NCBI GenBank assembly: GCA_031292255.1
Contig: JARLHN010000011.1
Coordinates: 50,333 to 114,332, forward strand
Length of the DNA: 64,000 nucleotides
Reading direction: 5' to 3'
Origin: Oryzomonas sp.
GTDB lineage: Bacteria > Desulfobacterota > Desulfuromonadia > Geobacterales > Pseudopelobacteraceae
This document shows, piece by piece, positions 40,518 to 43,012 of the stretch. Below the pieces are notes generated by a model, which worked only from the letters and a program-made list of their open reading frames with translations, was not told where the DNA came from and did not search any database. A program made the translations under genes and the position numbers. Within the stretch, counting starts at the first letter, position 1. Each line of letters begins with the position of its first letter.

Positions 40518-42554
40518 TCACGCGGCAGCAGGCAGAGCGCCGGCATCCTCAGGATCATTTCTCTTCTCCTGCTCTCCTGCGGCCGGTGCATCCATCTTGC
40601 AGATGCCGATTTTTTCCAGCGCCTTGAGCTGGCGGTAGGAGTTGCGCGACAGCTCGAAACGATCCATCATGAACCCGACACTTTCAAAGTAGAAGATGGC
40701 GTCCTGGAGGGCGCGGGCGTAGTTTCCCGCCCCATCCGGCTGCTTCTCCGGGAGGCAGATGAGGACCTCTCCGCTGTCGAGCAGGTGCCAGGCGAGGTGG
40801 ATGGCCGTTTTCCCTCCCTGTTCCACCACGCAGACATAAGCGCTGCAATCCTGGGATCGTCTCCCTTCCGGCGTGGCCCGGATCACGTTTGCCGAACCGT
40901 AGACTTCAACGATATCATCGGTTGAATGATAGGAAATGACCGATACCTGCGGGGCGTAGCGAATGGTCGAGTCGCCGACAGTCGCCGGGCCAAGGCTGCC
41001 GAACCCGGCAAAGCCGGGACCGGTATCCGTCAGTCCCAGGGCGGCAAAGGGTGACGCCACGGCAGACGGTTCGGCGCCGGTCTGGCCGAACAGGGACACA
41101 GGACGGGGGCCTGCTTCCTCCATCTGCATCAGCTTTTCCTCCAGGGCCTGCTTCTCCCGCGTAAGGCGCTCCACCGCTTTGTGGGCCTTTTTCTTGAAGC
41201 TGCCGGCGATGGTGTCCCACAGCTTTTTCTCGCCCAACAGATGTTCCTGTCTGGCCGAGAGAGACTTGAGTTCGATGCTGGCCGTTTTCAGTTCCAGCTC
41301 CTTTTCAGCCAGGAGCGTCTCGTAACGTTGCCGTGCCTCCATCTGCTCGTATTCAAGGCGTTTGATGCTGCTCTGCAACCCTTCCTGCTCCTGTACGCGG
41401 GGGTCCATCTCCTGCTGCCGCTCGATCCCCGCGCTCTCCCTGAGAACCGCCAGTTCGGCCCTGAGCGCCTCCCGCTCGTTGACGAACACCTGCTGCTCTT
41501 TCAGCACGTTTTTCAAGGTGTCCTGCATGACGCTGTTTTCGTGGCGGGCAGCGGCAAGTTCGTCTCGCAGCAGTTGTTCCCGTTCCGTGGCGGCATGCCC
41601 TTCCGCGTCACGCCGGGCGACCTCCCCGGCAAGCTGCTCTTCGGCACGCAATCGCTCGGCCGCCACGTCCTGATGGAGTCTGTCCAGTTCCCGTCGCAGT
41701 GCGGCCGACGCTTCTTCCGCCCGTTCCAGACGGTGCCCCAATTCATTCGCCCTTGTCTCGGTCTCCCGCTGGTTTGCCGTTTCCCTGACAAGCATCTCCT
41801 CAAGGGCGCGCAGCGCCTCGGTCTTACTTCCCAATTCGGCAAGCAGATCGGCCTCGCCCTCCGGGGCCTGCTCCTGCCGCCTGTCGCCCGGCTCCTGTTG
41901 AAACGCCCTCTCCCTCTCCCGGTACAAGGCGATGGTTCTCTCCAGCTCCAGTTTGATGCCCAAGATGGTTTGTTCGGCCATCCTTTCGGTCTCGTCCTTG
42001 GCTGACTCCATATCGGTCAAGGCTCTCCTGAGGTCGGCCACTTCTGCGGAAAGCGCGGCAACCTCGGGTGGCGTGACCTCCGGCAAGGAAAGCGAGACTG
42101 ACCCGGCGGCGGCAAAGTCATGGAGCGGGGCGTTGTCAGGCTCTTCCGCAGGGTGCGCAACGGTTTTGGACGGGGAGGGCGGGCGCATGACATTGATGCC
42201 TTGGATAATGACCTGGCGCATGGCAGCGCTGTAATCGAGTTTTAGCGGCTCCATGTCGAAACCCATGGACTTTGTGAGCTTCAGGGCCTCGTTGACGAGA
42301 CGTTTCTGATCGGCAGGCTTTCGTACATCGCCGGTTGTTGAGAGGATAACGGGACATTGGGTGGAAATATCGAAGAAGGCAACATACACGCAAAACCGGT
42401 CGTCTTCTCGGGCACTGCAGACGTACGCCTCGCACGGGTGCCCCTGGCATTGTGCTTCGGGGGGAACGGCGCTGTTGGAGGAACGGTAGAGCTCGGCGAG
42501 ATCAGGTTCCTTGATCTCGATATGGGTGAGGGAGTGATCCAGGGAAAACGCCAT
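40518..42554 (-). CDS. Hypothetical coiled-coil protein with a duplicated N- and C-terminal domain
   Basis: No known family recognised. The ATG at 42552-42554 has GGAGG six bases upstream; a TTG two codons earlier lies inside that site. The 678-residue product has no signal or membrane segment. Residues about 12-118 and 540-653 are repeats of one domain: DLAELYRSSN / DIVEVYGSAN, EAYVCSARED / SAYVCVVEQG, and SMGFDMEPLKL / SVGFMMDRFEL align at equal spacing. A long Glu/Arg/Leu coiled coil (about 166-476) joins them. It converges with prfA and has a candidate GEMM-type riboswitch plus terminator 230-330 nt upstream, suggesting second-messenger control. A filament- or scaffold-like role is only a guess. 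Confidence 0.88.
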   Translation of the reverse strand: MAFSLDHSLTHIEIKEPDLAELYRSSNSAVPPEAQCQGHPCEAYVCSAREDDRFCVYVAFFDISTQCPVILSTTGDVRKPADQKRLVNEALKLTKSMGFDMEPLKLDYSAAMRQVIIQGINVMRPPSPSKTVAHPAEEPDNAPLHDFAAAGSVSLSLPEVTPPEVAALSAEVADLRRALTDMESAKDETERMAEQTILGIKLELERTIALYRERERAFQQEPGDRRQEQAPEGEADLLAELGSKTEALRALEEMLVRETANQRETETRANELGHRLERAEEASAALRRELDRLHQDVAAERLRAEEQLAGEVARRDAEGHAATEREQLLRDELAAARHENSVMQDTLKNVLKEQQVFVNEREALRAELAVLRESAGIERQQEMDPRVQEQEGLQSSIKRLEYEQMEARQRYETLLAEKELELKTASIELKSLSARQEHLLGEKKLWDTIAGSFKKKAHKAVERLTREKQALEEKLMQMEEAGPRPVSLFGQTGAEPSAVASPFAALGLTDTGPGFAGFGSLGPATVGDSTIRYAPQVSVISYHSTDDIVEVYGSANVIRATPEGRRSQDCSAYVCVVEQGGKTAIHLAWHLLDSGEVLICLPEKQPDGAGNYARALQDAIFYFESVGFMMDRFELSRNSYRQLKALEKIGICKMDAPAAGEQEKRNDPEDAGALPAAA

Positions 42555-42566
42555 GCACAACCTCCG

Positions 42567-42716
42567 TTAGCAGGCTGCCGAAAATCTACTGCGGGGTTGG
42601 TCTGCGGCGTTGCCGCTCGCTCAAAAGCTCACCGTACCGATGGGTACGCCTCGCTTCCTCGTTCGCTTGCGCCTTGAATACCAACCTCCTCATGACGATT
42701 TCCAACAGCCTGTTAG
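42567..42716. repeat. MITE-like intergenic element (family B-related, copy 3)
   Basis: 150-bp element with imperfect 20-bp terminal inverted repeats (42567-42586 and 42697-42716, about 15 matches), inner GGTTGGT/ACCAACC arms and a central CGTACCGATGGGTACG palindrome. It lies in the leader of the coiled-coil gene, between the riboswitch terminator and the start codon. Confidence 0.75.
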
Positions 42717-42782
42717 TGCCGTTTTCCCCACGGGGAGAACGGACGGAACAGGCTTTGACCCTTTTGACCGTTGCAACATAAA

Positions 42783-42814
42783 CGGGTGCAAAAGATCTGA
42801 TCTTTCGGCACCCG
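42783..42814 (-). terminator. Terminator hairpin of the candidate GEMM riboswitch
   Basis: On minus, CGGGTGC...GCACCCG (42808-42814 with 42783-42789) enclose a further AAAGATC/GATCTTT stem, followed by TTTATGTT. The 3' side of the aptamer is part of this hairpin, so the two structures exclude each other. Confidence 0.7.
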
Positions 42815-42885
42815 GCTGTCTCAAAGAGACCCTTAGGCTATCCGTCCCGCCATTGCTGGCGGTTTAGTAGTATCGTTTATCAGAT
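42795..42885 (-). promoter_or_regulatory. Candidate GEMM-I (cyclic dinucleotide) riboswitch
   Basis: Read on minus: a 7-bp basal stem ATCTGAT (42879-42885) / ATCAGAT (42795-42801), then AAACC, a GCAA-capped hairpin (CCGCCAGCAATGGCGG), GGACGGATAGCC, CTAAGGGTCTC/GAGACAGCCGGGT and GCCGA. These follow the order of the c-di-GMP-I/GEMM consensus, including the GNRA loop. The bases just before AAACC differ from consensus (CTACT for AGGGC) and one U is missing on the 3' side, so ligand and activity are uncertain. In Geobacter some GEMM RNAs bind cGAMP. The gene downstream is the duplicated-domain coiled-coil protein. Confidence 0.62.
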
Positions 42886-43012
42886 GGTCAATAAAATATT
42901 TTAATTTATATAGTAATTAATTTTAAGCGCGACAACAAGTTTGTCAAGCGGTATTTGGTTGTTCGGCGAGATGGAAGTAACGGCACCGCCCCGTTTACGC
43001 CGCAATGGCGGA

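Follow-up and report, generated by a model that had tools for sequence, protein, structure and literature searches.

The minus strand of a 64,000-nt stretch of Oryzomonas sp. DNA (hereafter the window) carries a conserved, gene-linked variant of the GEMM-I aptamer. We read it, with a probability of about 0.8, as a GEMM-Ib riboswitch, a cGAMP-activated transcriptional ON switch for the gene of a 678-aa protein with twin domains and a coiled coil; the ligand, the direction of the switch and the regulation of the gene are what we infer here. Judged by its bases, the core looks odd but largely corresponds to the form already known to sense cGAMP. The part for which we did not find a description is a conserved junction with U at position 48 and a deletion at the base of P3.

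The full aptamer spans positions 42795–42885 of the minus strand (91 nt). A candidate promoter, TTGACA-16-TAAAAT, is placed just 5′ of it, a dispersed repeat of 141 nt separates the predicted terminator from the candidate gene, which counts against the proposed control of that gene, and upstream on the same strand lie thiC and, with a TPP riboswitch, a fused thiE/thiD gene (Table 1). A TTGACC motif just before P1 (42886–42891) could pair with either of two GGTCAA motifs after the terminator (42764–42769 or 42755–42760), and by eye comparable motifs occur in several leaders of the family.

Table 1 Features of the riboswitch locus, with base numbers in what we take to be Vc2 numbering, mapped through the RF01051 alignment
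Feature	Position	Strand	Basis or remark
Sigma-70-like promoter TTGACA-16-TAAAAT	42920..42947	(-)	Consensus scan, 11/12 matches; putative function
P1 5′ strand AUCUGAU	42879..42885	(-)	Complementary to 42795-42801
GEMM-I aptamer, RF01051 match	42804..42878	(-)	42.7 bits, gathering 35
A20, ligand-selecting base (A = cGAMP type)	42868	(-)	Rule from a passage of PMC9481103; equals A14 of 4YAZ (passage of PMC6274999)
C21, U22 (partners G46, G45; P2 base)	42866..42867	(-)	Similar pairs in pilM, 4YAZ
P2 hairpin, GCAA (GNRA) loop	42847..42862	(-)	Sequence and leader alignment
G45, G46 (partners of U22, C21)	42842..42843	(-)	Leader alignment
A47, J2/3 stacking adenine	42841	(-)	Equals A41 of 4YAZ
U48, variant position (ordinary GEMM-Ib: A)	42840	(-)	36 ordinary elements versus 17 group leaders
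P3 arm	42811..42839	(-)	RF01051 alignment
P3 3′ base GGG-U-G, 1 nucleotide short (ordinary: GGG-NN-R)	42809..42813	(-)	
C92, predicted to pair with ligand guanine; within terminator stem	42808	(-)	Equals C75 of 4YAZ/pilM
P1 3′ strand AUCAGAU, common to terminator hairpin	42795..42801	(-)	
Predicted terminator hairpin competing with P1, P3 base and C92	42783..42814	(-)	Folding
Dispersed repeat between terminator and gene	42580..42720	(-)	21 own-genome matches including itself
Candidate regulated gene, 678-aa protein	40518..42554	(-)	GGAGG at 42561-42565, ATG at 42554

A preliminary description had proposed a GEMM-I element from its sequence blocks, and the minus strand does carry them, arranged as claimed. 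The covariance model of RF01051 bears out the membership, with a match above the gathering score (E 5.4e-05 in the search of the window); a low covariance score without conserved homologous leaders, which was to count against the proposal, was not what we found. A permissive scan of 451 bases also returned the sister family RF03167 (c-di-GMP-I-GGC) at 38.7 bits, under its own cut-off of 59, and the element is not counted as a member. RF03167 and RF03168 (c-di-GMP-I-UAU) belong to the same clan as the element, and their names presumably give the bases at positions 20, 47 and 92 as GGC or UAU, unlike the AAC found here. The 121-nt leader folded better than all of 200 shuffled sequences (200/200, z −3.43).

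Compared with RF01051 members of the GEMM-Ia type such as Vc2, the element shares the overall fold, the GNRA loop of P2, the AAACC and GGAC blocks and the CCGA 3′ end but has A20 rather than G20 and an inverted C21–G46 pair. Its core (A20, the pairs C21–G46 and U22·G45 that close P2, and the bases A47 and C92) is that of the Geobacter GEMM-Ib riboswitches (pilM Gm0970; Gs1761, 4YAZ), with which it also shares the three-helix architecture. The equivalents in 4YAZ, a cGAMP riboswitch, are given in a passage of PMC6274999 as A14, C15–G40, A41 and C75, and the accessible text of PMC9262584 describes for pilM a lower U·G pair in P2 and a ligand paired by C75. The segment before AAACC, earlier said to depart from consensus, does so relative to RF01051, whereas it matches the cGAMP-type core. 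The core pattern ACTAAACC..GGNCGGANAGCC had 284 occurrences, distributed over 57 of the 76 genomes searched in the taxonomic family, and a control with the pattern reversed gave no occurrence in the same 76 genomes.

The element differs from the Geobacter GEMM-Ib aptamers at the junction of J2/3 with P3, where position 48 is U instead of A and a single nucleotide stands between GGG and GCC in the 3′ strand of P3. A sample of 36 ordinary GEMM-Ib elements (L012 and L030–L059), picked by a pattern that accepted any base at position 48, had A48 in 36/36 and two nucleotides at the P3 base in 36/36. We know of no source that makes A48 or the two-nucleotide base a defining feature of GEMM-Ib, so we treat both departures as variation. 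The earlier suspicion of a divergent variant was therefore right, but for features other than the one it named: the quoted blocks did contain U48 and the single-base gap near 42810, but neither was recognised, and the variant does not reside in the segment before AAACC.

Both features accompany one group of genes. Among the 284 pattern matches in the family, U48 occurred in 7 and C48 or G48 in none. When the 141 genomes of the order were searched for U48, 22 matches came up, 13 of them aptamers before the same gene family and 9 without aptamer context; reading of its leader added G014, and G084 carries G48 before the same gene family. A class-wide search for the deletion (48 = A, G or U, with G91) found it in 13 of 277 genomes, with U48 in 12, G48 in 1 and A48 in 0. 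The resulting variant set comprises 17 leaders of one gene-family group, spanning three families of the order, of which 14 have U, 1 has G and 2 have A at position 48. Since 16 of the 17 have the deletion and 14 have U48, against 0 of the 36 ordinary elements, the window element is a conserved, gene-linked variant aptamer. U48 is not obligatory in the group: the 16 leaders with the deletion combine U48 with G91 (13), G48 with G91 (1) or A48 with A91 (2; G082 and G083), whereas in G014 U48 occurs next to a full-length P3 base. With these four exceptions (G082, G083, G084 and G014), the two features are not strictly coupled. Among the literature titles and abstract openings listed, none described the variant, which does not establish its absence from print.

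By our own reading of the RF01051 structure line, the partners of A49 and G50 are bases 90 and 89, respectively. The variant offers one base for these two partners and must therefore lack at least one pair next to A47 and the ligand. It could be speculated that U48 stands in for the pyrimidine that is missing, but G082–G084 indicate that it is not obligatory for this. Compensation by a shorter internal loop was rejected, because an ordinary element (L033) with the same 'taagggtc' segment retains both bases. Across the 36 ordinary elements, base 90 covaries with the nucleotide that precedes C44 (G–U in 11/12, A–C in 22/24, with the nucleotide before C44 given first; Fisher p 1.4e-06, ignoring kinship), as isosteric G·U and A·C pairs would. 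Separately, the weakest GEMM-I match of the own genome (L014 1501–1587, G20 type) has GGAGAACC after P2, which by eye corresponds to G48 with an intact P3.

Could the remodelled junction, with U48 in place of A48 and a base lost at 89/90, alter ligand preference, affinity, kinetics or response range, for example towards another range of cGAMP or another cyclic dinucleotide? Such a functional effect is improbable in our judgement, though well short of negligible. Both changes sit beside the pocket, where, according to a passage of PMC6274999, simulations of 4YAZ show a contact between A42 and the ligand, and they accompany one gene group in three families while being absent from the 36 ordinary elements. 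Against this, the known selector bases are unchanged, a single inherited event in an orthologous leader requires no change of ligand, and position 48 is not fixed within the group. A shift in affinity would in any case be compatible with a cGAMP ON switch.

As to the ligand itself, the known ligand-selecting bases are kept, so cGAMP is most likely. A passage of PMC9481103 associates a selecting G with c-di-GMP and a selecting A, as found here at position 20, with c-AMP-GMP. The element could instead be a divergent but otherwise canonical c-di-GMP riboswitch, given that it matches RF01051, a family named c-di-GMP-I, and that binding of c-di-GMP by cGAMP riboswitches has also been reported (in the accessible part of PMC9262584); A20 disfavours this, the Gm0970 aptamer is reported to be ~1600-fold selective for cGAMP (PMC8835794), and we consider canonical c-di-GMP sensing decidedly unlikely. 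A source of cGAMP may also be encoded in the same genome. It has 34 GGDEF matches, of which 30 were read; 6 gave no motif reading, and the 24 motif readings (one neighbouring domain was read twice) have Asp in 23 and Ser in 1 at the Hypr position. The sole Ser-type domain read, L103 (GHLVGS..GGDEF), is a candidate cGAMP synthase, and we take Ser348 of GacA to lie in the corresponding GHxxG motif. That GacA residue is described in PMC8835794. The earlier link to GEMM-Ib and cGAMP is thus strengthened by the match of A20, C21–G46, A47 and C92 to published aptamers and by the Ser-type GGDEF domain. Metal-respiration genes of Geobacter are under the control of cGAMP riboswitches according to a passage of PMC6456294, and another passage there, on a gacA deletion in sulfurreducens, was counted in favour of a cGAMP ON switch.

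The proposed cGAMP switch would act through competition between P1 and a terminator. P1 consists of seven Watson–Crick pairs, as had been claimed, and its predicted competition with the terminator appeared as a crossover of folds in growing transcripts. P1 was in the best fold for 3′ ends from 42794 to 42786 (−30.2 kcal/mol), from a 3′ end at 42784 the fold without P1 was better, and at 42782 the terminator hairpin won, with −36.6 versus −30.2 kcal/mol when P1 was forced. CGGGUGC and GCACCCG, the two ends of the hairpin, pair with each other throughout, and the hairpin includes C92. This crossover follows the logic published for pilM, in which, in the accessible text of PMC9262584, the ligand-pairing C is captured by the terminator in the ON mechanism. 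Geobacter GEMM-Ib riboswitches work as ON switches by the same mutual exclusion, which the element has in predicted folds, with a weak U-tract.

In the proposed mechanism, the hairpin would, when ligand is absent, capture the 3′ half of the aptamer (the P3 base, C92 and the 3′ strand of P1), and transcription would stop. cGAMP would bind at the P1/P2/P3 junction with its A base at A20, its G base paired to C92 and A47 between them; P1 would then be held and the polymerase would read on. In the gene-tied variant, the base of P3 at J2/3 is remodelled by U48 and by the nucleotide lost opposite A49/G50. The proposed termination step may be leaky, because the U-tract is weak or missing in this genus and a simple terminator scan of the leader found no terminator. 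The tract after the hairpin, UUUAUGUU, is weak. By eye, a similar hairpin is present in 14 of 15 ortholog folds (the exception is G027), with the U-tract missing in G049, G050 and G052 and strong in G019, G084 and G085. Termination in this genus may be inefficient, or its expression platform may differ.

The 17 variant leaders have a common architecture, with 60 of 96 alignment columns invariant and 94.6% of structure cells paired. The junction pairs, C44–G73 and most of P1 are kept, and the UGAU/AUCA pairs of P1 are invariant in the 14 distinct leaders. Covariation within the group is modest, with 3 pairs showing double changes, a number equalled by 93 of 500 shuffles, and in a scan of 14 ortholog loci, 2 had nothing that reached the RF01051 cut-off. 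The element ranks 13th by score among 14 GEMM-I matches of its own genome, found by scoring 150 of 309 first-look candidates, and together with the weak or missing U-tracts this might point to the decayed copy that was suggested earlier; conservation of the leader before related genes in three families, with its junction pairs, C44–G73 and most of P1 preserved, disfavours a non-functional aptamer and makes it hardly credible.

The history of the cGAMP-type leader can be followed through the gene. Among 17 more distant homologs, 4 have an ordinary GEMM-Ib element and 2 (G082 and G083) the deletion with A48; the remaining 11 had no RF01051 match in the flanking stretch examined, so the gene is not always accompanied by the switch. 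Because more distant homologs bear ordinary GEMM-Ib elements, the comparison suggests that the P3 deletion arose on the way to the variant group. In a tree of 30 N-terminal domains, which leaves out G019 and G051 (domain missing), 15 members of the variant set fell into one group (support 81/85). G082 and G083 sit inside it beside G084 and G085, where A48 is either ancestral or a return. G127, from another family, is on a long branch of unsure placement and may have acquired gene and leader together.

The 678-aa protein has related N- and C-terminal domains of ~125 residues each, joined by a coiled-coil-like stretch. Searches of Pfam (threshold 0.001) and NCBIfam (threshold 0.1) assigned it to no family, and it had no relatives in the PDB by sequence. 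The AlphaFold model of the C-terminal domain is fair (pLDDT 82.8), and in a Foldseek search with it no PDB structure reached E ≤ 0.001; the best-ranked hit, a PARP1 entry with a WGR domain (E 0.12), is too weak to claim. Of the 141 genomes from the order, 61 encode a domain of this protein family.

Other GEMM-I elements of the same genome and of relatives show further arrangements. The 14 own-genome matches have A20 in 6 and G20 in 8, with the J2/3 segments of L007 and L014 read by eye. At L012 (C42:77295–77371 and 77448–77533; L012 1501–1577 and 1654–1739), an A20, cGAMP-type element that has a terminator-like hairpin of its own stands 76 nt before a G20, c-di-GMP-type aptamer, which in turn precedes a 429-aa ORF containing fn3; this mixed-ligand tandem is possibly an AND gate, and its exact spacing pattern occurred in 1 of 76 family genomes, the own genome. 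Four own-genome loci (L002, L003, L004 and L010) combine A20 with the ordinary G21–C46 closing pair. Rfam labels L002 and L003 as c-di-GMP-I-GGC, L004 as -UAU and L010 as RF01051; the GGC and UAU labels of L002–L004 do not give the ligand, because the bases that presumably gave these families their names are absent. In genome G016, three A20 elements stand in tandem within ~320 bases (L044 1501–1823).

The cGAMP-type core of GEMM-Ib was already known; what appears to be new is the conserved U48/P3-deletion junction. If the remodelling is neutral, the element is an ordinary case, another member of a well-described regulon. If it does shift the response, this one gene would have a response of its own within the cGAMP regulon, unlike that of the other members, and a natural variant altered beside the pocket and kept with one gene would show tuning of an RNA whose known selector bases are unchanged. 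The switch as we read it would tie part of an uncharacterised protein family to cGAMP signalling.
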